From a virus, in the IMG/VR virus record IMGVR_UViG_3300013772_000006, positions 1 through 64,000 of that record: 64,000 bases of DNA; one strand, given 5' to 3'. Both the position numbers and the translations under genes were made by a program. The notes beneath the pieces were generated by a model that ran no database searches, was not told the DNA's origin, and saw nothing but the letters and a program-made list of their open reading frames with translations. Of the stretch, positions 1-62,114 are shown piece by piece (the first letter of the stretch is position 1; each line of letters starts with the position of its first letter).

Positions 1-282
1 GGTACTAAATAGCTCTAAGTAGGCGCGACTTTGAAGGGCACGGCCCTTCACTGTCATAATTACCACGGCATCGGCTTCTGATACCGCGATAAGTAACTCA
101 TTAGTCCACCTTGCGACATGGTTAACAAACACATCCCAAGCCTGGGGATCGTTATTCCGCAGCCGCAAGCAGATCTTTTTAAACTCGGCGTCGTGGTCAA
201 TTCGCAAACGGTAGGCCGGGGGTTGCTGGCTGATCCGCGGTATCGGTCGGGTTAGCCATGGGGGTGGCTTGTGAATAGTCAT
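1..282 (-). CDS. Conserved phage protein, partial at window edge
   Basis: An open frame runs off the left edge of the window and starts at an ATG that lies inside the preceding gene in a different frame. The first 30 or so residues are rich in Pro and Arg. The rest looks helical and charged, with the stretch FKKICLRLRNNDPQAWD followed by a well-composed amphipathic segment. Codon use looks like that of a real protein rather than a shadow. It overlaps the C-terminal third of the next gene out of frame, so translation is probably coupled. The function is unknown; small proteins of this kind sit among head and tail genes in podovirus-like phages. The C-terminus is not visible. Confidence 0.6.
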   Translation of the reverse strand, partial: MTIHKPPPWLTRPIPRISQQPPAYRLRIDHDAEFKKICLRLRNNDPQAWDVFVNHVARWTNELLIAVSEADAVVIMTVKGRALQSRAYLELFST

Positions 283-409
283 TAAGGCTGTTTGAATACC
301 CGCCGGTAGCCGCACCAGGAAGATGCCGGGCAACGGCGCCCTTGCCAGCATGTTTAACGATCTTGCCGGCCCGGCCGATCGGGGTCAGGTGCTGCTTTAG
401 TATGGCCAT
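197..409 (-). CDS. Small hypothetical virion-region protein (70 aa)
   Basis: This is a 70-residue basic protein with a Gly/Ala-rich centre and a Pro/Thr-rich C-terminus. AAGG lies about seven bases before the ATG. It is one of three consecutive tiny genes transcribed leftward, and its 3' part is shared out of frame with the next gene. I recognise no domain. The position beside small virion-associated proteins suggests a particle component. Confidence 0.55.
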   Translation of the reverse strand: MAILKQHLTPIGRAGKIVKHAGKGAVARHLPGAATGGYSNSLNDYSQATPMANPTDTADQPATPGLPFAN

Positions 410-412
410 GGA

Positions 413-610
413 CTACCTTACCTGTCCTAGATTAGCGGGGTTAGCGAGCGGATTTTTGCCGTAATTCCGCATAGACGGCGCTGTTGGCTTGATCCGCGGC
501 GCCGGGTTTATGTTCATAGGGGTTGGCATAGCTGGCTGAACCCCAGCCTGGCGCAGCAGGGCGCGAGGCGTGGTCTGGATCAACGGAGGCTGTTTGCCTA
601 GGCCGGCCAT
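413..610 (-). CDS. Small hypothetical protein (65 aa), Pro/Asn-rich
   Basis: This is a 65-residue Pro-, Asn- and Arg-rich protein with low predicted order. Its ATG follows the stop of the upstream gene by one base (TGATATG), so it is probably translated by coupling, and no separate ribosome binding site is seen. The DNA around its start contains a perfect 14-base palindrome, GTACGAGCTCGTAC, that lies mostly in the upstream coding end. No family is recognised. Confidence 0.5.
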   Translation of the reverse strand: MAGLGKQPPLIQTTPRALLRQAGVQPAMPTPMNINPAPRIKPTAPSMRNYGKNPLANPANLGQVR

Positions 611-611
611 A

Positions 612-830
612 TCAGTACGAGCTCGTACGGCCCGCTACCTGACCATTGGACGGCTGAAAGCCGAACATCTTACCCTTGCCACCTTGCGCCCACTTCTGGC
701 TCAGGTTGTTCTTGGCCGTCGTATCGCGCGTGGTGCCGGGTTTCATGCGGTCGGCGGCTTGCCTGTGGAACATATGCTGTTTCCCGCCCTTGGCGAACGT
801 CACATCGTGGGATTTTTCAGTCTTAGCCAT
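612..830 (-). CDS. Small conserved virion-associated protein (72 aa)
   Basis: This 72-residue basic protein contains two similar glycine-rich motifs, VTFAKGGKQHMF near residue 10 and WAQGGKGKMFGF near residue 48. Small phage proteins with a repeated AKGG..HMF / GGKGKMFGF pattern are common among virion-region genes of podovirus-like phages, and this is the basis for the call. GGGAG precedes the ATG. It heads the group of three tiny genes that continues leftward. The function is not known; a small minor head or tail component is likely. Confidence 0.6.
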   Translation of the reverse strand: MAKTEKSHDVTFAKGGKQHMFHRQAADRMKPGTTRDTTAKNNLSQKWAQGGKGKMFGFQPSNGQVAGRTSSY

Positions 831-890
831 AGTTAAAACTCCCAGAGAGGAAATCTCTATGGGGTGATCTAACCAGATACAGGCTAATAA

Positions 891-1433
891 TTACTTAATG
901 GGCTTTATGACGACCAGGGGGAGTTGGGTAAACCATATGCTCCAACAGGCATACTCAGGGGGTATATGCTGGATGATCTCCATCGGATCACAGTTCGCCA
1001 CGTCCTCGATAATATATATACCATCTTTCGAAAGGAACGGTAGAAGAGTAACTGCGGTACCGAGTTGCTGGGCCGGCAAATGAACAGCATCATCAACAAT
1101 CATATCAAAGTCTCCCCCAAAATACAGCGCGGCATCAATCAATGATTGTGGATTATTGACATCAGCCCAAGCGGTTAGAATACCGTTCGCGGCAAACAGA
1201 AGCTTTCGATCAACATCTAATCCATAGATATTTGCCAACGGAAAGAAATTTCGCCACATGTACAGGCTGGCACCATGCTTCGACGCGCCGCCACTTAAGC
1301 CAGGACCGCCGATACCGACCTCGAGAACTCGTCGTACCCGCTTGTCTTTCAAGAGCTCATAATAGAATGGGGTATAACCCATGTCGACTTTGTTGGTGCC
1401 GTATTGAGTGGCTAGGTTACAGAGGGGGGTCAT
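891..1433 (-). CDS. SAM-dependent methyltransferase-like protein (cephalosporin-hydroxylase/TylF-like fold)
   Basis: This 180-residue protein has a class I methyltransferase core. VLEVGIGGPG (about residues 37-46) is the SAM-binding glycine loop, NIYGLDVD gives the acidic end of strand 2, and MIVDDAVHLP is the strand-4 acidic motif. This arrangement resembles methyltransferases and hydroxylase-like relatives that act on sugars or glycosides. AAGGAG precedes the ATG, and the start overlaps the stop of the upstream methyltransferase, so both are translated together. The neighbours are sugar-active enzymes, so O-methylation of a glycan is the best guess. The substrate is unknown. Confidence 0.65.
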   Translation of the reverse strand: MTPLCNLATQYGTNKVDMGYTPFYYELLKDKRVRRVLEVGIGGPGLSGGASKHGASLYMWRNFFPLANIYGLDVDRKLLFAANGILTAWADVNNPQSLIDAALYFGGDFDMIVDDAVHLPAQQLGTAVTLLPFLSKDGIYIIEDVANCDPMEIIQHIPPEYACWSIWFTQLPLVVIKPIK

Positions 1434-2122
1434 TCCGCACTCCTTAAGACACCTGTATTTTCTATGCGCTGGCGCATAGGTGCGTTCATAATGATCTCGT
1501 CATTCAATGTCTGACGGGCATACCGAACATACTCTACGGGGTCCCAATGAGGAAGCTTCTTCACGGGCTCTATATATTTGCCGAACGCAAAGGCAAATAC
1601 CACATCTGGAAGATAGGCTAGATGAACTGAAACTCCTGACCACGTAAGCATGGCCTTGATATTGAGTAAGGCATCAAAAATTAGATTTGAGTCATGGCCC
1701 GCAAAAATAAAGTCGTCCGGCATCAGGTCAGCCAAATTCAGAACATCCTGGAAGACCGCGGCATTGGTGTGCTCAGCATCTAGGAACACAAGGTTGGGGT
1801 GTACGTTATGACGCGCCGCAAACATAGCTGTATCCATATCGTAAGTATGCAGCTTTACTAGCTGGTCTAATGGAACAGTCTTCGATAGCTCGGCTATCAT
1901 CTGTGCGGCCGTAACCCCGTACTCCCAGGTACGCCCGCGTTCATCAGGCGTTGAAGCTGGCCGCAGATCGACCGAGTGAACCGCGACACACTTGGGATCG
2001 AGAAGCGCTGGCTGTAGACTACGTCCTAACTCGGACCCAACCTCAAGATACACACACGGCTCTATAGCCTGTACGATCTGGCGAAGCTTCAAGAGAGTGG
2101 CTTGATCTACATCATACGCCAT
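1430..2122 (-). CDS. Class I SAM-dependent methyltransferase (FkbM/Methyltransf_24-like)
   Basis: Translation starts at the ATG preceded by AGGAG (MAYDVDQATLLK), 20 codons inside the longest frame, giving 230 residues. CVYLEVGSELGRSL near residues 23-36 fits the SAM-binding motif I, AVHSVDLRP fits motif II, and LVFLDAEHTNAAVFQD contains the D-x-E-H motif of Methyltransf_24-type enzymes. It sits between a DUF4422-like protein and a second methyltransferase in one leftward operon with four-base-type overlaps. A sugar or glycolipid O-methyltransferase is likely; the substrate cannot be read from sequence. Confidence 0.65.
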   Translation of the reverse strand: MAYDVDQATLLKLRQIVQAIEPCVYLEVGSELGRSLQPALLDPKCVAVHSVDLRPASTPDERGRTWEYGVTAAQMIAELSKTVPLDQLVKLHTYDMDTAMFAARHNVHPNLVFLDAEHTNAAVFQDVLNLADLMPDDFIFAGHDSNLIFDALLNIKAMLTWSGVSVHLAYLPDVVFAFAFGKYIEPVKKLPHWDPVEYVRYARQTLNDEIIMNAPMRQRIENTGVLRSAE

Positions 2123-2861
2123 GTTGTAACTCCTGACAAAAAAGAAGCGGGAGCGCCTTTGTACGTAGGCCAGAGTTCGCAAGCCAGAGAGAATATATAC
2201 GCTCCGATAGAAACGCCATGCGGCGCGGTAGGTAGATATCCGGCCGGGGGCCAGGATCGGGACATGTCGCCGGTAGCGTAGCAGTTAGCTCACATACAAC
2301 CTCCCACCAGAATTTCATCCACTCATCAAATATCTTTCCAGTGCCCGTGAACACGCAATAGCTTGTTACCGTTGGAATGTCAAACTGCACTATCCCGTGC
2401 CGGCGAAGCACCCGCTCCATTTCCTGCCAGTCCGTTAGTGAAGCCGAGACAGCAAAATCCCGGCGAATGTCTCCATTATGTGTTACATCGTATGGCGGGT
2501 TAGTTAGGATATCTGTGCGGGTCAACATGGCCTCGATGTTCGGGCCGGCATGTTCCTGTTGCCAGTTCTGGTATTGGCGGAACTCAAGCGGATCAAGGGA
2601 TACCCAGTCACCCCCCACCTTACGGTCAATACGGAAATCCAGGTGCTTACGGTAGCCCTGGAACCCGATAATATCGTCATCTTTAAAGTAGCGATCAGTT
2701 ATGCCTTGCCACACGCCATATTGGGCGATCATATCCGCAAAGCTGGTCACACCGAATAAGTGGTCCCCCTTGGCAATCGGAAATACATGGACAATCCCTT
2801 CGCGCTTAGTCAGCGGCGGATTGTGGTGATCGACCGTGTAAAGGTTTATTCTTCCAGCCAT
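2112..2861 (-). CDS. DUF4422-like putative glycosyltransferase
   Basis: A protein of about 249 residues. DDDIIGFQGYRKHLDF near residues 60-76 resembles the conserved IG..QYRR segment of DUF4422 proteins, which occur in capsule and exopolysaccharide clusters and are treated as glycosyltransferases. The C-terminus PRRMAFLSERIYSLWL also fits that family, where an FLSERLF-type segment is typical. I chose the ATG giving MAGRINLY; a GTG seven codons upstream is an alternative, and neither has a strong ribosome binding site. The start overlaps the end of the epimerase gene. Its likely role is glycan assembly with its neighbours. Confidence 0.6.
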   Translation of the reverse strand: MAGRINLYTVDHHNPPLTKREGIVHVFPIAKGDHLFGVTSFADMIAQYGVWQGITDRYFKDDDIIGFQGYRKHLDFRIDRKVGGDWVSLDPLEFRQYQNWQQEHAGPNIEAMLTRTDILTNPPYDVTHNGDIRRDFAVSASLTDWQEMERVLRRHGIVQFDIPTVTSYCVFTGTGKIFDEWMKFWWEVVCELTATLPATCPDPGPRPDIYLPRRMAFLSERIYSLWLANSGLRTKALPLLFCQELQHGV

Positions 2862-3859
2862 TCGGGGTGCTTTCGGTTCCACTCTAGTGTATGTGTCAAG
2901 GACTCGTCAAAAGAAACTGGTGGCTTCCATCCGAGGCTGGCAAGCTTAGCTCCAGCAAGCCCGTAATGCCGATCATGTCCTGGCCGGGCAGAGTGAAAAT
3001 CTTGTAGCTCATATCGCAGAGGCTTACCCAAAATTTTGGCGATTTTTTGAGCCAGTTCGAGATTGCTGAGTCGGGTGTCTCCAACGATATTAAATCGATC
3101 GGGACGATCCACTTCACCGTCAGTGTGACGATGTGGGGTGACATTTCGAAGGATGAAGAGAAGCGCATCAGCGAAGTTCCGGGAATGTATATAGTAGCGC
3201 GAACCAATTGTTTTTTCGTTTCCATGGATCGTCACCGTTTCCCCTTTCAGGACTTTGCGTTGCACGATCGCGGCGAATTTCTTAGACTGCTGCATTTCAC
3301 CAAAGGCATTCATAGTATTCGTAATAATCAGGGGAACGTTGTAGCTCCTCCAGTAGCTAATTGCCACGGCCTCCTGAGCTGCTTTAGAGGCAGCATAAGG
3401 GTTGGAGGGCAGGATGGTAGACCACTCAGGGTGCTCGTCGTGCCCGCCAGATGGCCCGTATACTTCGTCGGTGGAGATTTGAATGAAGACACTTGGCCGG
3501 TACTGGCGCGCGTAGTCCAACATATTGATAACGAGCTGAACATTATTGAGGATGAAGGGTCCTGGATCTTCGATACTGGTTCCCACATCAGAGAGAGAAG
3601 CCATATTGATGATATAATCAATTGGATTAATACGACCGGAAAGCACAGAAGAAATAGGTGTCGAGAGGTCATGCGTGTAAACATAGGTTCGTGCCTTCCA
3701 TTGGGGGTGTTCTCGGAAAATTTCGGTGATGCGATCGGTCCAGCCCTTATGCCGAAACGAGTCCAAGGCCACAACTTCCCAGTCGGTGTTCTTCATCAGG
3801 TGCGCTAGTGTATGACATCCAATCGACCCGCCAGCACCGGACAAGAGAACTCGTTTCAT
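2846..3859 (-). CDS. NAD-dependent epimerase/dehydratase (extended SDR, RmlB/GalE type)
   Basis: This 337-residue extended short-chain dehydrogenase makes or interconverts nucleotide sugars. SGAGGSIG (residues 7-14) is the Rossmann GxxGxxG loop, STDEVYG (129-135) carries the active-site Thr/Asp/Glu seen in sugar-nucleotide 4,6-dehydratases, and YAASK (155-159) is the catalytic Tyr-Lys pair. The length matches the family. The start is fixed by GGAG before ATG-AAA-CGA; a longer frame upstream lacks such a site. It overlaps both neighbours by a few bases. It probably supplies a modified sugar nucleotide to the adjacent glycosyltransferases. Confidence 0.85.
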   Translation of the reverse strand: MKRVLLSGAGGSIGCHTLAHLMKNTDWEVVALDSFRHKGWTDRITEIFREHPQWKARTYVYTHDLSTPISSVLSGRINPIDYIINMASLSDVGTSIEDPGPFILNNVQLVINMLDYARQYRPSVFIQISTDEVYGPSGGHDEHPEWSTILPSNPYAASKAAQEAVAISYWRSYNVPLIITNTMNAFGEMQQSKKFAAIVQRKVLKGETVTIHGNEKTIGSRYYIHSRNFADALLFILRNVTPHRHTDGEVDRPDRFNIVGDTRLSNLELAQKIAKILGKPLRYELQDFHSARPGHDRHYGLAGAKLASLGWKPPVSFDESLTHTLEWNRKHPEWLEE

Positions 3860-4521
3860 TTGTAATTCTCCAGCATACTCGAATTGTGTCCAGCACCATA
3901 CCAGCGAATAGGTAAAATGCCTCTCGCCTCTACCATAGCCCAATAATTCACGTCCCACAAGACGTGGCCGGTTTTCACCAGGTGCTGTAACATTGCTGTC
4001 CGTACCTCGTCATGAAGTGCGGCAACCTGTGCTGCCGGGCACACAAACATGGACCCAAGAAATCTCCAACAGGGTTCAGTTTCTGGCACAGGGGCTGGTC
4101 CCCATAAGCCCGGAAAAGCGAGATCATCTGGTCGCACCCGATTAAAGAAATCGGCTACGAGTTCTTCTGTAAACCCTTCCTGATGAAAGATCCCGTAGTC
4201 CATCCACACATATGTATCTGCTGGTTCATCCTGTAACCGCGCCATCTGTAGCCACTTCGTCTTCTGGGCAAGCACCACCATGTAGTCGAGCGTATCCTTA
4301 GCTGGGTTACCTTGGGCGGATAGGGGGACGGTCGGACCCAGACCATTTTGATCGTGCACATGGTTATATAGCCAACACTTGTCCAGCGGCCACTCGGCAA
4401 AGACCGACTTCTCGACCGGGGCCTGGAGTAACCGGTTGCTGTAATTCGTGAAATCCTCCCGCGAGCGATAGAACTCGGCGGACGGTAGATGGACATGACC
4501 AGTGACTAGTCGTACCTTCAT
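3856..4521 (-). CDS. HtrL/WlaTC-like putative glycosyltransferase
   Basis: A 221-residue protein. YVWMDYGIF near residue 104, FLGSMFVCPA near 152 and the C-terminal VLWDVNYWAMV resemble HtrL/YibB/WlaTC-type proteins found in surface-glycan loci, which are regarded as glycosyltransferase relatives. GGAAAGAG precedes the ATG. It lies between the epimerase and a methyltransferase in the same operon with overlapping ends, which supports a glycan role. The family assignment is from motif shape only and could be wrong. Confidence 0.5.
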   Translation of the reverse strand: MKVRLVTGHVHLPSAEFYRSREDFTNYSNRLLQAPVEKSVFAEWPLDKCWLYNHVHDQNGLGPTVPLSAQGNPAKDTLDYMVVLAQKTKWLQMARLQDEPADTYVWMDYGIFHQEGFTEELVADFFNRVRPDDLAFPGLWGPAPVPETEPCWRFLGSMFVCPAAQVAALHDEVRTAMLQHLVKTGHVLWDVNYWAMVEARGILPIRWYGAGHNSSMLENYK

Positions 4522-5210
4522 ATCTCTTTCCGAAATAACAGGTTCATGAACGTATACTCCAGTCCAGCCCAGGCGATAATTTTTTCCTCACACCTAGTAT
4601 CCACACTCCCGCTGTCCACTCTTAGCCCGACCACGGATGCCACGTCAATGACGCGCAGGACGTCTTGGCATGAGAATATGTGGAGTGGTGCATCATGAGT
4701 TATTAAACCGAGCGTGTCAAGCTTGTCTACCCAATAATCAAAGGACACAAACAAATGGCCACCAGGCTTCAAGATGCGCGCCACTTCCGTCAAAAATACC
4801 GGTACATCCACTCCGTGTTCAATCACGCTTAAGCAGGAAATAAACTGGAATATGTCATTCGGAAACGGTGTGCTGGTGATATCCCCATAAGCGTAGCGAA
4901 TGCCATCGCGTACCCCGGCCTTATAGTCGTCATTACGGTCAAGATTGATCCCGATTAGGTTATGAAAGCCCTGAACCCGAAGACCAGGAAGGTACGCGGA
5001 CTCATCGCCGGCACCAGCATCTAAAATCGGCTCACTGAACGAACAGCGGCGCCGTGTGTGGTGCACCGCGAGAAAGCTATCCCAATTCTTATTATTATCA
5101 GGATGAAGGGGTAACTCTTTGGGGCGCATAAAATTACATGCGATCTCCACGTCGTCTTGACGTGTGAGGGCCTTATTTGTCTGGGAGTCGACCCATTCAT
5201 TTTCGGTCAT
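4518..5210 (-). CDS. SAM-dependent methyltransferase (Methyltransf_11-like)
   Basis: A 230-residue class I methyltransferase. ILDAGAGDES is motif I, NLIGINLDRND motif II, IFQFISCLSVIEHG the strand-4 motif and ILKPGGHLFVS the family-typical post-IV segment. The start chosen is the ATG that overlaps the stop of the glycosyltransferase gene as ATGA, a common coupling in this genome. A longer frame begins inside that gene and is unlikely. By context it probably methylates a sugar or glycan acceptor. The substrate is unknown. Confidence 0.75.
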   Translation of the reverse strand: MTENEWVDSQTNKALTRQDDVEIACNFMRPKELPLHPDNNKNWDSFLAVHHTRRRCSFSEPILDAGAGDESAYLPGLRVQGFHNLIGINLDRNDDYKAGVRDGIRYAYGDITSTPFPNDIFQFISCLSVIEHGVDVPVFLTEVARILKPGGHLFVSFDYWVDKLDTLGLITHDAPLHIFSCQDVLRVIDVASVVGLRVDSGSVDTRCEEKIIAWAGLEYTFMNLLFRKEI

Positions 5211-7177
5211 AGGAACATACTCATTACGTCGAGCTTGCTCACCGTTGCAAGCCACGCTTCGCAGTCCTTGATACCATAGGAGATCACCAGCTTTTCCTTT
5301 GATGGATGCCACGCCAGCCCAGCCGCGAATTCGATCTGCCGATCATGGAGAACGAATGCCTTACTGATCTGGCGTAGCACCTTGGTAATGTCCCACCATA
5401 CAAATCGATGTTGGTAGTACCGCCGATTGTCACCCGGGCGCAACTTGGACTCGTGTACGATCGCAAGCCAGCCACCATTGAATTCAATCACCTGGGAGCC
5501 ACCACTGAGGGCCTCCACTGCAAAGGGGACCGGGGAGGGTGTTTTAACGCCGTGGCTGTTAATCAGGGTGTCCAACCGGTACACGAAGTCCAACTTGTCA
5601 CCTTGTACCCACGGCATCCAATTCTTTTCGTGGGTGGGGGTCCTCTGTATCGGGCGAGCATTGATCAAGCTACCCTCATGGATGTGAGCCGTCCACTGTT
5701 CGCACCACCCGTCCGGATTTTGTTCGCGCACATTAGCAGAAATCCATGTGCCGCCTAGCCACCCGAACAGCCGCATATCTTCAAACCCAATCACCAAAGG
5801 GTAGGTCGGGGGAGGCATATTCGGGGGGGACAAGAGTTCTTCCATGTGTGTTACGCGCAACTCTGAGCTAAGCGCAAGTAAATAGTTGCGCGTACGAATT
5901 GGGTTGCTGTTGTTGGCCGGACTGTTGATGTCTATCCCTTTAATTAGATAGCGGCCCTCTTCATCCATAGTGTAGTTTACAGAACGGACCACGACATGCA
6001 ACAGGCCATCAAGATTTGCAACCGATGGGTTCGTGGCAATATAGCCGTCCCTGGGCGTGAAATCAATCCGCTTCGCCTCAAACGACGGGCAGAGCTCTTT
6101 CAAGGGCTGCAGGTAGTAGTAGAGATTACTCCGGGCCATTTCCCGGGATCCCGGATAACATTTGGGGTCGATCGCCAGATCGCTACAGACACTATAACCG
6201 CGGTTGCGATAAGAAGGGTGATAGAAAGCACAAATAGCAAACTCTTCTCGGAGGGCTGTTGCATATACATGATCCGTTACAAAGAGGACATCGGTTGGGT
6301 AGGGGATCTTCATCCCCTCTACGGAGTACAGGAGACTGGTTTTCTGCTGATCGTGTTCGCGGTAGTGTTTGGCGAGGTCATACAGGGGTTCGGCGCGGGT
6401 CGGGCGAAAGTTATACGCATTCAGCAATTCGCGTATAAATCCATCCGTGTCATCTACTGCATTGAGACAATGGGCATAATTAAGACGAGCACTCCAAACC
6501 TCTTCATCCCACCCACCGCTGTTTATACGATTTTTGTACCACTCCGCGGCCTTGTTTGGTTGCCCGGCATCGCGATAAGACTGCGCCAGATAGTACATAT
6601 ACCGGCCGTTCTCTGGCTCTTTTTTCAGTCCCGCCAGCAACATTTCAATGTCGCGAACGAATTTATCCTTACGATTTGACCCGTCGGCATGGTCAACGAA
6701 CGACACACCCTCTAGGTGGGTGCCGCCGCCTATGTCAAGGTATTCATGGGTTACGCCGATATAGTTACCCTTCTGGTCGCGACGGATTAGTCGTCGGTTA
6801 TAATAGGATGTTCCGCCAGCAGTCTGGACGATATCATATGCGATATCAGTGAGATTGTCGAAAGCCTTGGGGTCGGTTACCGTAAGGACCATATCAGCGT
6901 CGCAAAGCAAAATATAGTTAAAGCTATGAGTACAAATACGTGCCAATTTGAGCGCGTCGTTTCGGGCTTGTTCAAAGTTCGTAAAGTGTCCTTGCTCGAC
7001 AACGCCGGGTATCTTCTTCTCCGCGAAGTAAGCAGTGATGATTTTTTGCGTGCCATCTGATGATCCTGTGTCCAAAACGGCGTACGACGATATCCACGGT
7101 GCAACACTTTCAAGGCACCGAACAATTTTGTCAGCCTCATTCTTAACGATCATATTTAACATTAACTTAACCGGCAT
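5207..7177 (-). CDS. GT2 glycosyltransferase fused to TPR and beta-propeller (GH130-like) domains
   Basis: A 656-residue multidomain protein. The N-terminus is a family 2 glycosyltransferase: MIVKNEAD near residue 9, DTGSSDG at 36-42 for nucleotide binding and LLCDADMVL near 91-99 with the DxD metal motif. A TPR-like helical segment (YYLAQSYRDAGQPNKAAEWY) lies near residue 195. From about residue 330 the sequence resembles a five-bladed propeller of the GH130-like type, with FEDMRLF, NWMPW, HRFVWWD and a closing LVISYGIKDCEAWLA. GGAG precedes the chosen ATG, which overlaps the HNH gene stop. It probably transfers a hexose to a phage-encoded acceptor; neighbouring collagen-like fibres are one candidate. 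Confidence 0.8.
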   Translation of the reverse strand: MPVKLMLNMIVKNEADKIVRCLESVAPWISSYAVLDTGSSDGTQKIITAYFAEKKIPGVVEQGHFTNFEQARNDALKLARICTHSFNYILLCDADMVLTVTDPKAFDNLTDIAYDIVQTAGGTSYYNRRLIRRDQKGNYIGVTHEYLDIGGGTHLEGVSFVDHADGSNRKDKFVRDIEMLLAGLKKEPENGRYMYYLAQSYRDAGQPNKAAEWYKNRINSGGWDEEVWSARLNYAHCLNAVDDTDGFIRELLNAYNFRPTRAEPLYDLAKHYREHDQQKTSLLYSVEGMKIPYPTDVLFVTDHVYATALREEFAICAFYHPSYRNRGYSVCSDLAIDPKCYPGSREMARSNLYYYLQPLKELCPSFEAKRIDFTPRDGYIATNPSVANLDGLLHVVVRSVNYTMDEEGRYLIKGIDINSPANNSNPIRTRNYLLALSSELRVTHMEELLSPPNMPPPTYPLVIGFEDMRLFGWLGGTWISANVREQNPDGWCEQWTAHIHEGSLINARPIQRTPTHEKNWMPWVQGDKLDFVYRLDTLINSHGVKTPSPVPFAVEALSGGSQVIEFNGGWLAIVHESKLRPGDNRRYYQHRFVWWDITKVLRQISKAFVLHDRQIEFAAGLAWHPSKEKLVISYGIKDCEAWLATVSKLDVMSMFL

Positions 7178-7553
7178 TATGGTACTCCAAGTAATCAGCA
7201 AGTGCCCGTAATATAGCGGGACTATCTTTTGCCATACCTAATGCAACATTGCATTTATGACATAGAATACCACGTAATTTACCGGTTATATGATTATGAT
7301 CTGTGTTCCAGTTTTTTGCCCCCGGCTCTCTAGTCCTACAAACCGCGCAACACGAACCCTGTACAACAAAACGGTCCTCCCACTCCACAAGAGAGGTCCC
7401 ATGATTATATAAAAGATTATTATTTCTACGTTTGATCGGATGGTTTTTAACCCAATTACGGCAATCGCGCAAATGGGCATCAGGGTGACGGGCACGCCAC
7501 CGACGATTGGCAGTATTATGGGCGAGCCTACGTTGCTCTACAGAAGCAGCCAT
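7167..7553 (-). CDS. HNH homing endonuclease, endonuclease VII-like
   Basis: This 128-residue protein has a C-terminal endonuclease VII type ββα-metal fold. CAVC near residue 73, WNTDHNHITGKLRGILCHKCN and the helical tail AILRALADYLEYH match phage recombination-endonuclease-VII-like HNH proteins, with two CxxC zinc ligand pairs and the DHNH active site. The N-terminal half is basic and probably contacts DNA. It sits between collagen-like genes and the glycosyltransferase operon and overlaps the next start by 11 bases. Free-standing copies like this one are usually selfish homing endonucleases rather than resolvases. Confidence 0.75.
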   Translation of the reverse strand: MAASVEQRRLAHNTANRRWRARHPDAHLRDCRNWVKNHPIKRRNNNLLYNHGTSLVEWEDRFVVQGSCCAVCRTREPGAKNWNTDHNHITGKLRGILCHKCNVALGMAKDSPAILRALADYLEYHNAG

Positions 7554-7591: not shown

Positions 7592-8371
7592 TCAGCCGCG
7601 GCTGATTTTTAGTGGGCCCACCATACCTACTAGTCCGGTGGAACCAGTAGTTCCACTAATGCCGACCGGATAGAACGTGCCGGTACTACCGGTCGCGCCA
7701 CCTGTTGGTCCGGGCAGGAAGTAGGTCGAATAGATAGTCATGCCAGCGTTATACACCGCACCGGAAATGTGAGGGTCGCCGACCGGCGGCATGAAGAAGG
7801 CACCCGTCATTCCGACGTAGGCGGCGGCCACGGGGCCCGCCTTACCCGGAGGCCCTATAACACCCGTCGGGCCTGTTGGCCCCGCGGGACCTGCTTTACC
7901 AGTCACACCTTGAGGGAGTGCCGAAGCGGGACCAGTCGGGCCAGTGCCAGCAGTCGGGCCAGTAACGCCACCAGCACCGATAAAGCCTGGACCAACCGGA
8001 CCAGTATAGCCTGTTGAAATACCGTGTGGTCCAGTGGCACCTGCGCCGCCTGTTGCCCCAGTGGCGGCTGTTGGGCCGAGTGGGCCACCAGGACCGACAA
8101 CACCTGGATCGTTCTGTCGGCCGGTAGGACCAACAAGCGCAATATTAGCCGGACCAGCAAGTACAGGACCGGTAGGACCAGCTACACCACCAACCAATAG
8201 AGTAGGACCGGTAGGGCCCACGCGACCAGTCGCGCCGCGGGCACCGTACATATCCGCGTCGTTGATCTGATCTACTACCTGTTTAAGGACAGTCGGTATC
8301 GAGTTATCGTCAAACGTATCCGGAAGTACCGGATCAGGTGCAATAGCGCCAGGTGGCGGAACAAAAACCAT
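7592..8371 (-). CDS. Collagen-like repeat fibre protein
   Basis: A protein of about 259 residues. After an N-terminal segment (VLKQVVDQINDADMYG, similar to the next protein upstream) it carries some 45 Gly-X-Y triplets dominated by Gly-Pro-Thr and Gly-Pro-Ala, with interruptions that look like small non-triplet inserts. Such triplets form trimeric collagen-like rods in phage fibres. The ATG follows GAGAGG with good spacing; a TTG two codons earlier is possible. Together with its neighbour it probably forms a surface fibre or decoration. Threonine in the Y position offers potential O-glycosylation sites. The C-terminus lacks a recognisable receptor-binding domain. Confidence 0.8.
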   Translation of the reverse strand: MVFVPPPGAIAPDPVLPDTFDDNSIPTVLKQVVDQINDADMYGARGATGRVGPTGPTLLVGGVAGPTGPVLAGPANIALVGPTGRQNDPGVVGPGGPLGPTAATGATGGAGATGPHGISTGYTGPVGPGFIGAGGVTGPTAGTGPTGPASALPQGVTGKAGPAGPTGPTGVIGPPGKAGPVAAAYVGMTGAFFMPPVGDPHISGAVYNAGMTIYSTYFLPGPTGGATGSTGTFYPVGISGTTGSTGLVGMVGPLKISRG

Positions 8372-8389
8372 AGTCAAGCCCTCTCGTTA

Positions 8390-8989
<600 letters not shown>

Positions 8990-21716: not shown

Positions 21717-21745
21717 TTTGTATCCCCCTTATATCAGGATGTCAA
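21717..21745 (-). promoter_or_regulatory. Sigma70-like promoter
   Basis: On the minus strand TTGACA (21745-21740), 17 bases, then TACAAA (21722-21717). It would give a leader of about 190 bases before the ATG at 21521, or start near the first in-frame GTG. It is one of a series of similar promoters in this block. Confidence 0.5.
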
Positions 21746-21916
21746 GGGTGCCTTTGCTTTCCAGTAATATTCCCGGCTTTGGCGCCGTCGGTGTGCCAGG
21801 TTGGCCCACCTATAGGCGGCATTGATGGCCTTTTTACAGGGGGTACAATAACAGATATCGACCCCATATCGCGGGCCCCTACATCGGGGGCACCGGTTTA
21901 GTTTACGCGCGGTCAT
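21734..21916 (-). CDS. Small zinc-finger-like protein (60 aa)
   Basis: A 60-residue basic protein with CPRC near residue 9 and CYCTPC near 22, which together can bind one zinc ion, followed by a basic aromatic helix (AAYRWANLAHRRRQSREYYW). This shape resembles small phage zinc-finger proteins and also the N-terminal parts of HNH homing endonucleases, of which it could be a remnant. A sigma70-like promoter precedes it. The function is unknown. Confidence 0.55.
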   Translation of the reverse strand: MTARKLNRCPRCRGPRYGVDICYCTPCKKAINAAYRWANLAHRRRQSREYYWKAKAPLTS

Positions 21917-21923
21917 GGGTTAA

Positions 21924-21952
21924 GGGTTACACCTTGGGCCCTTAGGTGTCAA
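21924..21952 (-). promoter_or_regulatory. Sigma70-like promoter
   Basis: On the minus strand TTGACA (21952-21947), 17 bases, TAACCC (21929-21924), lying just before the zinc-finger gene. The -35 overlaps the last codons of the cytosine methyltransferase gene. Confidence 0.45.
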
Positions 21953-22805
21953 GGTAGGCGCCTATGAACCGCGCCGCGGGCCGCGGGTCGATGGCGTTCC
22001 CAAATCCGCGCAATTTACCCACTCTATTGGGTACCCCATGAGCCAGCAGACGAACTCCGGGTTTAACGCGCCGGGCTTTTCCGTCGGCTCCGAGGACCCA
22101 TTCATAACCTGCAGACTGAGAGCTGTTAGAGCCACTCCCAGCTTGGCTCCATTCGCTACCGCCTTCCTTTTTCGCTGAAGGAATTGCTCTGGTGTCCCAC
22201 CTGCAGGGCGCGCGACCGGAGTTGCCCAAACTGTCCTCCCCAGCAACCCGTTCACCGGTACGTTCGGGCAATATGGGCCGTCCTTGTGGTCCCGCTGGGT
22301 TGCCGTCGGCCACAAACCAGTATCGGTCCCTGAGGTGGTCCGCCCCCGCGCTCGCGGCCTGGATAGGCATTGCCCCCACGGCGTAGCCCATGGTTTCCAG
22401 GTCACTTCGCACAAGTCCGAGCCATTTAGCCGCTGACGCAACCTGCTCTCCAAAGACGACTGGAGGGCGTCCGACCTCGATGAGGGCCTTGAAATAGGGC
22501 CATAGGTGGCGTTCATCCTTGAATCCTCCTTGTTTTCCGGCAAGGGAGAATGGCTGGCACGGGCAACTGCCGGTCCATACAGGTCGATCGTCAGGCCATC
22601 CGGCCAGACGGAGGGCATAGCTCCAGCCCCCGATACCGGCGAAAAAGTGGCATTGGGTGAAGGTTTTAAGGTCATCCGGGGGTACCTCCGTTATGGATCG
22701 GTCATCCACCTCGCCGTCAGCAATAAGCCCCCTGAATATCAGGGCTTCGAGCCAGCGTACGGCGAAAGGGTCGTTTTCGTTATAATATGTGTATGGTTTA
22801 GGCAT
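21942..22805 (-). CDS. DNA C5-cytosine methyltransferase (Dcm family)
   Basis: A 287-residue enzyme that transfers a methyl group from SAM to cytosine C5. FFAGIGG (54-60) is motif I, GSCPCQPFS has the catalytic Pro-Cys (82-84 PCQ), VVFGEQV (about 117-123) replaces the usual ENV of motif VI, LRDRYWFVA near 158 is motif VIII, and RGFGNAIDPRPAARF near the C-terminus is motif X. It is short for the family and the target recognition region is small. A solitary phage methyltransferase of this kind probably protects phage DNA from host restriction. AAGG before the ATG and a sigma70-like promoter are visible. A second protein may be encoded within it. Confidence 0.85.
   Translation of the reverse strand: MPKPYTYYNENDPFAVRWLEALIFRGLIADGEVDDRSITEVPPDDLKTFTQCHFFAGIGGWSYALRLAGWPDDRPVWTGSCPCQPFSLAGKQGGFKDERHLWPYFKALIEVGRPPVVFGEQVASAAKWLGLVRSDLETMGYAVGAMPIQAASAGADHLRDRYWFVADGNPAGPQGRPILPERTGERVAGEDSLGNSGRAPCRWDTRAIPSAKKEGGSEWSQAGSGSNSSQSAGYEWVLGADGKARRVKPGVRLLAHGVPNRVGKLRGFGNAIDPRPAARFIGAYLDT
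21962..22675 (-). CDS. Overprinted protein inside the cytosine methyltransferase gene
   Basis: A 237-codon open frame on the same strand, one frame shifted, lying wholly inside the methyltransferase gene. It contains segments I recognise from hypothetical proteins of proteobacterial phages: SSLESRLRQRLNGSD, EVTWKPWATPWGQCLSRPRA, GLWPTATQRDHKDGP, GGTPEQFLQRKRKA, then GALNPEFVCWLMGYPIEW. In those phages the same protein is also encoded out of frame within the methyltransferase gene. This argues for a real overlapping gene. The start may be the first ATG or one further in (MNATYGPIS). The function is unknown. Confidence 0.5.
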   Translation of the reverse strand: MTLKPSPNATFSPVSGAGAMPSVWPDGLTIDLYGPAVARASHSPLPENKEDSRMNATYGPISRPSSRSDALQSSLESRLRQRLNGSDLCEVTWKPWATPWGQCLSRPRARGRTTSGTDTGLWPTATQRDHKDGPYCPNVPVNGLLGRTVWATPVARPAGGTPEQFLQRKRKAVANGAKLGVALTALSLQVMNGSSEPTEKPGALNPEFVCWLMGYPIEWVNCADLGTPSTRGPRRGS

Positions 22806-22811
22806 GAGCGG

Positions 22812-22840
22812 GTGGTACCTTATGTCAGTGGGGGTGTCAA
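22812..22840 (-). promoter_or_regulatory. Sigma70-like promoter for the methyltransferase gene
   Basis: On the minus strand TTGACA (22840-22835), 17 bases, then TACCAC (22817-22812). The -10 match is weak and overlaps the region just before the ATG, where AAGG is also the likely ribosome binding site, so the leader would be very short or the start leaderless. Confidence 0.4.
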
Positions 22841-23241
22841 GCCTCAGCCACCCTTTTTAATCGGCGCGATCGCCTATATGCTGCACCGCATGGCTTACAG
22901 TAGGTCTGGTAGCTATCCTTTGATCCGCTGCATATAGGGCAGGTAATCCCATATCCCCGCGGGCGCCGGCCAGACTGGGTTAAAAGCACAGTGGTTTTGT
23001 CATAGTTGTGAAGGGGGTTCTCGTCGAGTAGGGCACTCGCTTCGGCCTTGCGTGCGGTATGCCAGTCCGGAAACCACTCAATCCTGGCCGTGGCGATATC
23101 TCGAGCCCACGATTTTGTACCGTGGCTCTGTAGGCGGGTGGCGAAGGGATTTTGAGACATCCCGATATATAACAGCTTGTCTTTGATGTCGAATAGCCTA
23201 TATATAGCATGTGGCAAGGTGGCGCGGTCTTTATGGGTCAT
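22837..23241 (-). CDS. GIY-YIG nuclease-like protein with zinc finger
   Basis: A 134-residue protein starting at ATG behind GGAGG. AIYRLFDIKDKLLYIGMSQN (about residues 12-31) carries the two strands of a GIY-YIG domain, TRLQSHG and EWFPDWHTARKAEASALLDE provide the Arg and Glu of the active site, and NPLHNYDK closes it. The C-terminal part adds CPIC ... YCKPCG, a zinc finger, and a basic tail. It is probably a free-standing homing-type nuclease, or possibly a restriction-like early enzyme. It is the first gene of the leftward accessory block beside the control region. Confidence 0.7.
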   Translation of the reverse strand: MTHKDRATLPHAIYRLFDIKDKLLYIGMSQNPFATRLQSHGTKSWARDIATARIEWFPDWHTARKAEASALLDENPLHNYDKTTVLLTQSGRRPRGYGITCPICSGSKDSYQTYCKPCGAAYRRSRRLKRVAEA

Positions 23242-23264
23242 CGGTACCTCCATTGGTTGGGTAT

Positions 23265-23293
23265 ACCTTACCACCTTGACATAAGTGTGTCAA
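23265..23293 (-). promoter_or_regulatory. Sigma70-like promoter for the leftward accessory block
   Basis: On the minus strand TTGACA (23293-23288), 17 bases, TAAGGT (23270-23265), about 25 bases before the GIY-YIG gene. A second TTGACA (23302-23297) overlaps it, so two registers are possible. This is the leftmost signal of the divergent control region. Confidence 0.5.
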
Positions 23294-58058: not shown

Positions 58059-59243
58059 TTATCCGAGTTTCACGATACGTAAGGCGGAAACAAAGTAGTT
58101 GGCGCGAGAACGTGTAACAATGGTACCTTGCTGCAAGACGTGAACTTCAACATAATCCGTGATCCCATTTAAGAACGCCACCGTAGACAAGTTAAGATAG
58201 ACCTGTCCGTTCTGTTGCAGTGAAAACACGGCCACGTCATTACCGCTCACGTCAATAAAGGAAACGGCAAAACCTGAAACCGTGTTATTACAAATGACAA
58301 CAGCATATATTTCGTAGGTTCCAGACTGCGTCGGGGTATACCGGTGGGTCGTTATATTAAACGCGCTCTGCGTATCCGTAACAATCGTGTCTATGGCTAA
58401 CGTAGTGTCGGTCAAGGTCACAACAGTTTGGTCCACGCTTTGATAGGCATCCAAGACGATCACGGCATGACTTGCCGGCCCTTGAGCTCCATTTGGGCCC
58501 GTATAACCAGTTGAACCCGTGGGTCCCGTCACGCCCTGTATGCCTTGCGCCCCGGTAGGACCAGTGGGGCCCGTATAACCAGTTGAACCCGTGGGTCCCG
58601 TCACGCCCTGTATGCCTTGCGAGCCCTGTGGCCCAGTCGGTGCTGTAGGACCCGTGGGTCCCGTCGCGCCCTGTATGCCTTGCGAGCCCTGTGGCCCAGT
58701 CGGTGCTGTAGGACCCGTGGGTCCCGTCGCGCCCTGTATGCCTTGCGCCCCGGTAGGACCAGTGGGGCCTGTGGGTCCGCCGCCTGCTGGACCAGTCGGA
58801 CCAAGCCCTCCGGAGCCGGTTGGTCCAGTAGTTCCACCGCCGGTGGGGCCTGTTGGCCCAGTTCCGCCTAACGTTCCATTAAATCCGGTAGGGCCTGGTG
58901 GCCCTAGGATCGACAGTAGCAATGCCGCGTTCGTATCCGATGCGAACACAGGGCCACCATTCGTGCCGATGAAAAACTCCATGTGGTCGTAGCGGCGCTG
59001 GCCGATCGACGTGTCCTGTTCGATGATCACATTGAACTGATCGTTCAACGTGCCACCGTTTAAATAGAAGCTGTAGGATGTACCATTGGCCGCGATGACA
59101 ATCGTGTCAGTCGTCGCGGTGCCGGCATCAACCGTGCAGGTGATCCCGGTAATTGTCTCACCGGTCAATAACCAAGGCGTGCAGTCAATGACATACTGCG
59201 TCCGGTTCCCGACGAGCTGTTGTTTGCGGCCGAGGACGGTCAT
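58059..59243 (-). CDS. Fibre protein: adaptor domain, collagen-like shaft, C-terminal head
   Basis: A 394-residue fibre. Residues 1-100 form an adaptor-like domain ([36 protein letters not shown]). About residues 105-245 are Gly-X-Y triplets, many of them GPTGPTG with GAQGIQG insertions, including exact DNA-level repeats. The final 145 residues are a beta-rich C1q/TNF-like head ([36 protein letters not shown]). GAGGTG precedes the ATG, which overlaps the upstream stop. It is a likely receptor-binding or decoration fibre. Confidence 0.75.
58500..58760. repeat. Tandem DNA repeats in a collagen shaft
   Basis: A unit starting GTATAACCAG at 58501 recurs at 58573 (period 72), and a unit starting GAGCCCTGTG at 58621 recurs at 58684 (period 63). 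Copies are virtually identical. Both periods are multiples of nine, so whole collagen triplets are gained or lost in frame. Confidence 0.75.
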
Positions 59244-60352
59244 TAGTTCACCTCAAAGAGAACACAGTTCAGATTATTCAATAGGCTACTGTTGGCGGTT
59301 GTAATTGCTTCAACCTGTAAATCAGTCCAAATGGCGGTATGGAGAGCTAAGCCGGTGATGAGCGCGGAAATGGAAAATGGAATCTTTAAGTCTGCAATAG
59401 CCGTTAGTGTCGTGCCCGTATCATATTGTTGGACCATTCCAACGACCTTTCCGGTCGCGGCAGCCCCCCTAGCGGGGGCTGCCCCCGTGCCAAATGCAAT
59501 TCTATATTGGATTCCGACGTTCGCGGTTGTCACGCTGGCGGTGATATATCCAGAAATATTACATATTACCGTTCCAGTAACGACAGGTGTAATAGCGTCT
59601 TTCAGTCCCATCATGGTAAAGACAGCCGTACCAGTGGCACCAGTCGGGCCTAACCCAGTTGTGCCACTTACTGCCCCGTGCAGGGCGGGACCAGTTGGAC
59701 CAGTCGGACCCCCAGATGGGGGCCCAGTAACACCTGTGGGCCCAGTCGGCCCAGTCGGCCCAGTCGGCCCAGTCACGCCCTGGCCGCCTGCGCTGCCTTG
59801 CGCACCAGTCGGGCCTGTCGGGCCAGTGACGCCCTGGATGCCCTGGCCGCCTGCGTTGCCTTGCGCACCAGTCGGGCCTGTCGGGCCAGTAGAACCCGTT
59901 GCCGCGGTAGGCCCTTGTGGTCCGGTAGTCCCCGCACCAGAGGGACCAGTAGGACCCGTTCCACCAAGTGTCCCATTAAACCCGGTAGGACCAGTCACAC
60001 CTGGTGTACCGGCACCAGTGGGACCTACGATCGACAGCATCAATGCGCCGTTGGGCGAGAGGAAATTGGGGCCCCCGTTTGTCTCGACGAAGATTTCAAA
60101 ATGATCATAGCGGATCTGGGTGAGCGACGTCGTGGCCTGCACGATGACGTTGAAGTTGTCACCCAGCGTACCGTTGTTAAGATAGAAACTGGCCGTTGAG
60201 GAGGTGAATGTAATGGTGTCAGTCGTCGCGGTGCCACTATCAATAATGATAGCAATAGCCGTGATCACCTCACCGGCAGCGAGCCAGGGCGCGTAGTTGA
60301 TATTATAAAGCCGGCGATCACCGACGATTTGGAGTTTGCGCCCTAGGTGCAT
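59243..60352 (-). CDS. Fibre protein: adaptor domain, collagen-like shaft, C-terminal head
   Basis: A 369-residue paralogue. Residues 1-103 ([36 protein letters not shown]) are the shared adaptor. Residues about 108-230 are collagen triplets with NAGGQGIQG and SAGGQG inserts, and the C-terminal 140 residues form a different beta head ([20 protein letters not shown]). It thus keeps the anchor and changes the tip relative to its neighbour. Its ATG overlaps the stop of the 39-residue gene as TAATG. Confidence 0.75.
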
Positions 60353-60471
60353 TACACCCTCTCGTCGACTAGAAGGGTGTTCTCCTGGTCTGGTACAAAG
60401 ATAACGTTGTCCTCTACAGGGACAACTACGTTGTGATCATCCGCGGGGACCATAATGGTTTCGTTTTCCAC
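60352..60471 (-). CDS. Hypothetical acidic microprotein (39 aa), GTG start
   Basis: A 39-residue acidic protein ([20 protein letters not shown] ... DERV) of short strands. GTG start behind GGGAGG, one base after the upstream stop; its own TAA overlaps the fibre ATG. The repeated V-P-x-D/E motif ([22 protein letters not shown]) looks like three copies of one strand. It may be a small virion or fibre-assembly factor. Confidence 0.55.
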
Positions 60472-60472
60472 A

Positions 60473-61126
60473 TCAGCCTCCCTGGAAATACCCGGCGGAT
60501 ATAGGGTGTGGAATGGGGCCGGCTAAAATTTCCACCTGGAAGTCATCGTGCGCCGAAGCATTCGCCTGGTTATATGAAATCGCTGGGGTGGTACCCGGTG
60601 AGGCCATCGCAATACTGGCCAAGAGTAGCGAATTGACAGGGCCAGCTACCGCGGTATACCCAGCTGGTGTGGCTAGTGTTCCTGAATTGGACCCTTCCAT
60701 ATCCAGCACAAGACTGTTAACACCGGCAGTACTCAGGGAACCGCCGCTAAATATAGATGACGCACCGTTGTCCGAGTTGGTCTTATTGAAATTACCAATT
60801 GGGTTTGAAGTAGATACGCTTTGCACTTGAACCAGCTGACCCTGACAGCTAGTACTAGTGACATAGGACACATTCGGTGCTGCGTTGCTTGCTACCACGC
60901 GGTACCAAGCCCACGAGCAGCTTAGATCATTAGCGGTTGCTGTATTAAACTTATCTATTTCCGTCCAACCAGCGGGCCAAGTAAACGTAAGGCCATTCTG
61001 CGCGCTATAGATAAAGCCAACAATGATATTACCGGCAACGAGAGAGCCAGGTAAAGTCAATGTTAGATTGGTCGCAAGGGCGGTGTGCGTATTTGCGCCA
61101 ATAGATGCAACAGTAGGGCCAGCCAT
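60473..61126 (-). CDS. Beta-rich virion protein (217 aa)
   Basis: A 217-residue protein. VASIGANTHTALATNLTLTL, IIVGFIYSAQNGLTFTWPAG and DFQVEILAGP make a beta sandwich of a kind frequently found in phage tail or fibre genes. AAGGTAAA precedes the ATG. It lies between two collagen-like fibre genes, so a fibre-associated or decoration protein is likely. Confidence 0.6.
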   Translation of the reverse strand: MAGPTVASIGANTHTALATNLTLTLPGSLVAGNIIVGFIYSAQNGLTFTWPAGWTEIDKFNTATANDLSCSWAWYRVVASNAAPNVSYVTSTSCQGQLVQVQSVSTSNPIGNFNKTNSDNGASSIFSGGSLSTAGVNSLVLDMEGSNSGTLATPAGYTAVAGPVNSLLLASIAMASPGTTPAISYNQANASAHDDFQVEILAGPIPHPISAGYFQGG

Positions 61127-61127
61127 T

Positions 61128-62114
61128 TTACCTTGCGACCTTTAATGCCAGGGTCAACCGTTGACAGGTAGTGTCACTGTCCACATTGAACCCGAGCACC
61201 GTGCCCGCGGCCAGAGCGGTTGACCAACTAGTGAGTGTGCTATCTTGCGCCTTTGTTGCCGCTGTAATAGTAGGCGGCGTCGTCGATGTAATCTTATCCG
61301 CCGCAACGGGGTGTGTCGCGCCACTATCAAACTGGGCGTACGTACAGGCCCAGATATTGACAATGGCTGAGCCCGTTTGATCGGCAAGCAACGTGGCTTG
61401 CTTGATTGTGCAAGCGAAGTCAATGAACAGATACCCCTTGAAGCCAGCAACTATCGTGGATCCACTACCGTCGATCACGAACGTAATATCGGATATCGAT
61501 GGACCGGTGGCACCCGTTGGCCCAAGCGACCCCGTAGGGCCCGTCAGTCCAGCAGTGCCACCAGTTGGCCCGAGCGACCCCGTGGGGCCAGTTGGGCCAG
61601 TTAGTCCGGCGGTTCCGCCGGTTGGACCTTGAACGCCTGTTGGCCCTAAGCCAGTCGCACCGGTTGGCCCCTGGTTACCAGTCGGGCCACCAGATGGTGG
61701 GCCAGTTACACCCGTGGGCCCGCTTGCACCGGTTGGGCCTTGATTACCTACAGGGCCACTTGCACCAACGGGGCCTGTTGCACCGGTTGGACCAACCGCG
61801 GTTGGACCTGTCGGGCCTGTTACACCACGTGGACCCGTTGGCGCCGTGGGACCTGTCGGGCCAGTTGGACCCGTACCGCCTGTCGGGCCAGTTGGACCGG
61901 TTACGCCAATAGGACCAGTGGGGCCTGTCGGCGCGGTTGGACCAGTAGGTCCTTGTGGACCTGTCGCCGCGGTCGGGCCTTGCGGACCTGTAGGTCCAGA
62001 GAGGCCACCTTGTTGTAATGCAATGACCGCACCGACAACGTTGTCCAGCATACGGTCATAGGTTTGCCGATCATAATGCAGAGAAGTGTAAAGACCCGTC
62101 GGACCTGTGCTCAT
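61128..62114 (-). CDS. Collagen-like fibre protein (328 aa)
   Basis: A 328-residue protein. [20 protein letters not shown] forms a short N-terminal helix distinct from the adaptor domain of the neighbours. About residues 36-205 are collagen triplets dominated by Gly-Pro-Thr, with [10 protein letters not shown]-like inserts. The C-terminal 120 residues are a beta head ([39 protein letters not shown]), a type found on other phage fibres. It overlaps the tail adaptor's stop. Likely a surface fibre. Confidence 0.75.

Follow-up and report, generated by a model that had tools for sequence, protein, structure and literature searches.

Does the long open reading frame within a phage cytosine methyltransferase gene encode a second protein, and if so, what does this protein do? 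The gene in question lies in a 64,000-nucleotide stretch of DNA (the window), which is part of a 66.6-kb IMG/VR virus record and belongs to a tailed phage encoding a DNA polymerase and the large subunit of a terminase. The methyltransferase frame, here called alpha, matches PF00145 (E 2.8e-12) and phrog_363 (E 3.4e-68). It entirely encloses a second ORF, beta, which is read from the same minus strand in the +1 frame and matches phrog_1008 (E 8.7e-24), while Pfam and NCBIfam yielded no model for it. The original prediction had described a 237-codon ORF in a shifted frame of the methyltransferase gene; both ORFs are indeed present at this place on the same strand, and the peptides quoted from the alternate frame, WKPWATPWGQCLSRPRA, GLWPTATQRDHKDGP, and ALNPEFVCWLMGYP, are encoded in beta. 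The coordinates of all features are summarized in Table 1.

Table 1. Features of the alpha and beta reading frames (positions refer to the window)
Feature	Position	Strand	Basis or remark
Alpha, C5-cytosine DNA methyltransferase, large catalytic domain, 287 aa	21942..22805	minus	phrog_363; PF00145
Alpha motif I (HFFAGIGGW)	22623..22649	minus	
Alpha motif IV with catalytic PCQ (TGSCPCQPFS)	22545..22574	minus	
Alpha motif VI (GEQV)	22440..22451	minus	
Alpha motif VIII (RDRYWFVAD)	22305..22331	minus	
Alpha motif X (GFGNAIDP)	21984..22007	minus	Last helix pLDDT about 90-95
Beta, nested ORF, 237 aa, +1 relative to alpha	21962..22675	minus	phrog_1008
Shine-Dalgarno GGAGGT, 8 nt ahead of beta ATG at 22675	22684..22689	minus	Sequence and family test
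Shine-Dalgarno AAGGAGG, 8 nt ahead of internal beta ATG at 22516 (residue 54)	22525..22531	minus	Sequence
Constrained beta core, residues 54-237; equals the product if the internal ATG is used	21962..22516	minus	Constraint rise; residues 1-60 predicted unstructured
Beta residues 54-118, helix and beta-hairpin domain over alpha motifs V-VIII	22322..22516	minus	pLDDT ~90 at 71-110; third-position identity 0.64
Beta residues 119-200, variable W-x-T-P region, proposed target recognition; alpha reading is a low-complexity linker	22076..22321	minus	
Beta motif IX, GALNPEFVCWLMGYPIEW	22019..22072	minus	z = 102 given alpha; fourfold-site identity 0.81; hhalign to single-chain enzymes

The genes flanking the methyltransferase (22837-23274 and 21734-21916, minus strand) both encode a similar zinc-ribbon-like stretch (Cys-x2-Cys ... 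Cys-x2-Cys) with an arginine-rich tail, and one of them matches phage endonuclease families. No restriction enzyme gene was recognized among the neighbors of the methyltransferase. Farther away, long collagen-like GPTGPTG repeats characterize several proteins encoded on the minus strand at 7592-8989 and 58059-62114, which probably belong to the tail or fibers; one antisense strand carries long proline-rich ORFs. One end of the window (1-7201) holds a block of sugar or cell-surface genes, which by eye from the translations resemble methyltransferases, nucleotide-sugar epimerases, and glycosyltransferases.

We checked homologous methyltransferase genes for disruption of the alternate frame. Relatives were gathered by the alpha frame alone, and the best 80 viral and the best 80 genome loci gave 146 distinct genes. 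This sample is not perfectly neutral, since it comprises the best 80 matches per collection and one of the two search patterns falls in DNA that also codes for beta. Among these alpha-selected best matches, the +1 frame was intact throughout the region from motif I to motif X in 144 of 146 genes (about 236 codons on average). None of the 146 has an open +2 frame, in which about nine stops occur per gene, and the antisense frames are open in 11, 0, and 0 of them. From synonymous-codon nulls, only 12.6 (within-gene permutation) or 1.2 (codon usage outside the overlap) open +1 frames would be expected among the 146, and for the window gene itself the probability of an open +1 frame is 0.003 under two such nulls. 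The two exceptions contain one stop each, located in the weakly conserved start of beta upstream of its core. A protein-level search with the alternate frame (tblastn) detected beta in 218 phage records, 187 of which match over at least 80% of its length; plasmid matches were restricted to 10 records, judged to be probable phage-plasmids. Nested betas are also present under much more divergent alphas (hhalign to the window family, E 3.9e-21). Two loci were conspicuous in other respects. At locus L023 (around 1225-2174), alpha is apparently split over two frames near motif IV and beta is open, which may reflect a sequencing error or a degrading alpha. At locus L009 (1396-2952), no stop interrupts the beta frame for 778 nt after alpha has ended, as though beta were fused to a protein encoded downstream.

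Selection in the two frames was assessed by a pair of converse tests. In one, the alpha protein was kept fixed, synonymous codons were redrawn, and the conservation of beta was scored; in the other, beta was kept fixed. Given alpha, beta is more conserved than the null across the entire overlap: z is about 50 at beta residues 70-110 and 102 at motif IX, compared with 4-8 upstream, where beta does not code. The conservation of alpha given beta is likewise above the null throughout. The check for a dual-frame selection signal thus revealed a signal in both frames and for all parts of the overlap. In fourfold-degenerate codons of alpha, the third-base identity between pairs is 32% ahead of the overlap, 38% over about the first 50 beta residues, 64% in the beta core, 47% in its variable region, and 81% over its motif IX. 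Together, the z and identity profiles place the onset of constraint in beta near alpha codon 98-104 and indicate that its first ∼55 residues are nearly free. The AlphaFold2 prediction agrees with this constraint profile: beta residues 1-60 are unstructured, and residues 71-110 reach a pLDDT of about 90. These results confirm that two distinct proteins are encoded by overlapping frames of the same phage DNA and that selection keeps both, and the proposal of a genuine overlapping-gene pair is very strongly supported by frame conservation and selection in both frames. To our knowledge, with about 236 codons open in 144 of 146 genes and selection on either frame, it is among the best-supported long same-strand gene overlaps.

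The initiation signals of beta were analyzed across the same family. A beta-frame ATG preceded by a Shine-Dalgarno sequence of at least four bases is found in the upstream start zone of 82% of the relatives, compared to 33% (sd 4%) in a null with redrawn alpha codons, and 0% have this combination in the +2 frame. In this phage, the internal ATG at 22516 had the appearance of the true beta start, though it showed no conservation across the family.

What do the two frames contribute? The methyltransferase frame had been described as containing all core motifs. The hallmarks of a C5-cytosine methyltransferase, the PCQ of motif IV and the SAM motif I, are both present in alpha, and motifs I-VIII and X are all located in this large subunit. 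Motif IX, however, was not recognized in alpha and sits in the beta frame. The alignment of alpha with M.HhaI comprises the large domain only. In the AlphaFold2 model, pLDDT exceeds 90 for most of residues 11-165 and 270-287 and is poor at residues about 171-230 and 251-270; for the alpha segment over 22076..22321 it amounts to 43-60. A Foldseek comparison of this model with M.HhaI resulted in a best E value of 5.7e-9 over 167-193 columns of the 327-residue chain. Based on this alignment and the extent of the AlphaFold2 and Foldseek matches, alpha looks like a catalytic domain plus motif X that lacks a small domain. Order-promoting residues make up 17% of alpha in the variable region versus 35% in its catalytic core.

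The C-terminal end of beta carries LNPEFVCWLMGYPIEW, which fits motif IX (compare LHPRECARVMGYPDSY of M.HhaI), so that this motif is held by the small subunit. In the variable region of beta, W-x-T-P motifs occur 0.90 times per gene, an 11-fold excess over the 0.08 expected from alpha coding. The recurrent motif of alpha in this region, observed at 0.60, is predicted at 0.595 by beta coding alone. Because of the WxTP excess, the explanation of the alpha motif by beta, and the low content of order-promoting residues, beta appears to be the selected protein in the recognition region and alpha largely a passenger linker. This points to a target-recognition-like region that belongs to beta, with the center of alpha predicted to be disordered and a by-product of beta coding. 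Only two parts of beta are clearly homologous to single-chain enzymes by direct comparison, namely motif IX (hhalign E 1e-4, probability of 55%) and the segment W..G-WPTP (E 5e-7, probability of 93%), and the remainder is linked to them by PHROG clustering. AlphaFold2 modeling of beta alone was poor overall (pLDDT 64, pTM 0.31). A Foldseek search with this model gave no usable fold match in the PDB and solely other phage beta-like proteins in BFVD at E <0.001, and PDB sequence searches with beta or its profile returned no match.

The same module occurs in other phage methyltransferases. The segment LSPRFVEWMMGLPEGWVT...LRALGNGVVPQQA, searched with a consensus query, is present in a single frame in 556 actinophage records. 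Aggie gp53 and MelBins gp5 are single-chain enzymes in which one and the same frame covers motifs I-VIII, then LPTP repeats, and finally motifs IX and X; as a negative control, single-chain actinophage enzymes contain 10-11 stops in the +1 frame. In Abidatro, the enzyme is divided between the tandem genes gp40 and gp41, and in Dylan, the two genes gp7 and gp6 share 209 nt, their frames being offset by +1 just as in the window pair, with motif X remaining in gp6. These single-chain and split enzymes share motifs I-VIII, the LPTP/WPTP region, and motif IX with the window pair, but they read motif X after motif IX without a change of frame, and no second frame overlaps their recognition half. Besides the window beta and the nested betas of Salmonella phage S9-5, Paenibacillus phage Arcticfreeze, and phage C72C1, phrog_1008 also includes Abidatro gp41 (3.4e-61) and Dylan gp6 (1.1e-59). 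In phrog_116, a single-chain family of 779 residues, the window alpha matches positions 273-391, and gp41 and gp6 match positions 418-490. From this membership and these match positions, we conclude that the two frames correspond to two halves of one known enzyme. The overlap in Mycobacterium phage Dylan (705-1656 of its locus) is a possible intermediate between single-chain and nested enzymes. The m5C enzymes of about 700 aa with relaxed specificity from Paracoccus and Sinorhizobium prophages were also considered and apparently represent a different, larger class.

Two-polypeptide m5C methyltransferases have precedents. Lee, Kam and Shaw reportedly found in 1995 that the beta gene of the E. 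coli enzyme M.EcoHK31I lies wholly within its alpha gene in another frame, and the window pair resembles this arrangement in that the small-subunit ORF is nested in the large-subunit gene in the other frame. The function of the pair, initially regarded as unknown, can be narrowed down in two ways: beta matches the C-terminal half of m5C methyltransferases, which comprises motif IX and the recognition region, and M.EcoHK31I has a corresponding arrangement of two polypeptides (PMC3404938). This enzyme recognizes YGGCCR; its larger polypeptide contains motifs I-VIII and X and a predicted TRD, and its smaller one motif IX (PMC3404938). Compared by published description, the likeness lies in the two polypeptides, with motifs I-VIII and X in the larger and IX in the smaller, whereas the difference concerns the predicted TRD, which is placed in the larger subunit there (PMC3404938) and, as a recognition-like region, in beta here, judging from sequence. 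M.AquI (CYCGRG) is a naturally bisected m5C methyltransferase (PMC3404938) that is likewise split into alpha and beta with motif IX in the smaller chain. Its motif X, however, is in the smaller subunit, whereas that of the window (GNAIDP) is in alpha and the window genes overlap almost completely. An M.AquI-type split with motifs IX and X both in the small subunit was therefore rejected, because motif X is read in the alpha frame. We read the window pair as belonging to the two-polypeptide M.EcoHK31I kind, which is already known. The breadth of its occurrence (218 phage records), quantitative evidence for dual coding, recognition in beta, and the Dylan intermediate were not found in the literature searched.

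Existing annotations contain both proteins in places. In Escherichia phage K1G, a nested phrog_363/phrog_1008 pair is annotated as 'C-specific methylase' and 'Mte8-like protein', and the record of Paenibacillus phage Arcticfreeze likewise annotates both nested ORFs, but neither proposes a subunit relationship. Only one of the two proteins is annotated in epsilon15, N15, and most other phage records examined. A literature search for 'Mte8' retrieved one paper, which gives no explanation of the name. The partnership of alpha and beta is hidden because PHROGs names both families simply 'DNA methyltransferase'.

The interpretation that we regard as highly likely is a heterodimeric m5C methyltransferase produced from overlapping frames, in which alpha would catalyze the reaction and beta would supply the small domain. 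Its basis is the overlap and its conservation, dual selection, initiation signals, and the homology of beta to the C-terminal half of such enzymes; from these we infer a translated beta that associates with alpha, is required for enzyme activity, and determines the specificity. Alpha, read in frame 0, would provide the large catalytic domain with motifs I-VIII, a disordered linker, and motif X. Translation of beta in the +1 frame would start from its own ribosome-binding site inside alpha and deliver the small domain with its helix-hairpin module, variable WxTP-rich recognition region, and motif IX. Alpha and beta would then join into one enzyme that binds DNA via beta and transfers the methyl group via alpha. 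Beta is very probably the DNA-recognition partner of alpha, and the enzyme probably serves to shield the phage genome from host restriction.

Other explanations dispense with a second protein altogether. High GC content and a conserved host frame lengthen alternate ORFs, and the open frame could be a mere by-product of methyltransferase conservation and codon bias. Yet 1-13 of 146 frames would be expected open by chance and 144 are, the +2 and antisense frames are broken, the fourfold-site identity climbs from 0.32 to 0.81 exactly over the beta motifs, and single-chain relatives have a broken +1 frame, which makes this explanation extremely improbable. We give just as little credence to an RNA structure or another nucleotide signal as the source of the synonymous constraint. 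Third-position conservation by itself would look identical in this case, but such a signal would not hold a frame open for 236 codons through variable indels, yield recurrent WxTP motifs in the beta frame, or produce a family of proteins that can be aligned between phages with alphas of ∼30% identity.

If beta is a real protein, it might still act outside the methyltransferase, for example in anti-restriction or regulation, and merely share its DNA. The end of beta is indeed matched by two PHROG families, 26627 and 27243, that have no known function. We nevertheless consider such a role unlikely, as beta carries the motif IX that is unrecognized in alpha, every beta relative examined at its locus sits within a methyltransferase gene, and phrog_1008 holds split C-terminal methyltransferase subunits, too. 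Programmed +1 ribosomal frameshifting into one alpha-beta fusion chain would fit the +1 position of beta relative to alpha and the same order of parts in single-chain relatives. Both frames, however, are constrained from alpha codon ∼104 to the end, and therefore no single shift point retains motifs VI-VIII together with the beta core. Moreover, motif X and its frame are conserved in alpha downstream of the recognition region, and beta has its own Shine-Dalgarno sequence and ATG, so that we regard a fusion as very unlikely.

The heterodimer could have originated from a single-chain enzyme by a +1 shift after motif VIII. The recognition half would then have been translated separately from a start inside the first half, as in the Dylan type, before the first ORF was extended, without changing frame, across the recognition DNA and recovered motif X, as in the window type. 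The chances seem about even that the nested pair is ancient and stable across many phage and prophage lineages and arose from a single-chain enzyme by +1 frameshift, with a Dylan-type intermediate and motif X later read in alpha, and that the whole recognition half (TRD and motif IX) lies in the alternate frame, so that specificity would evolve in beta and the DNA would encode merely a linker for alpha. If the recognition half lies wholly in beta, the published view of a TRD in the large subunit would be corrected. If beta carries the specificity, cloning or codon-optimizing the alpha ORF only would lose or alter activity. The Dylan-type overlap suggests concretely how a single-chain enzyme could turn into a nested one that uses two frames.
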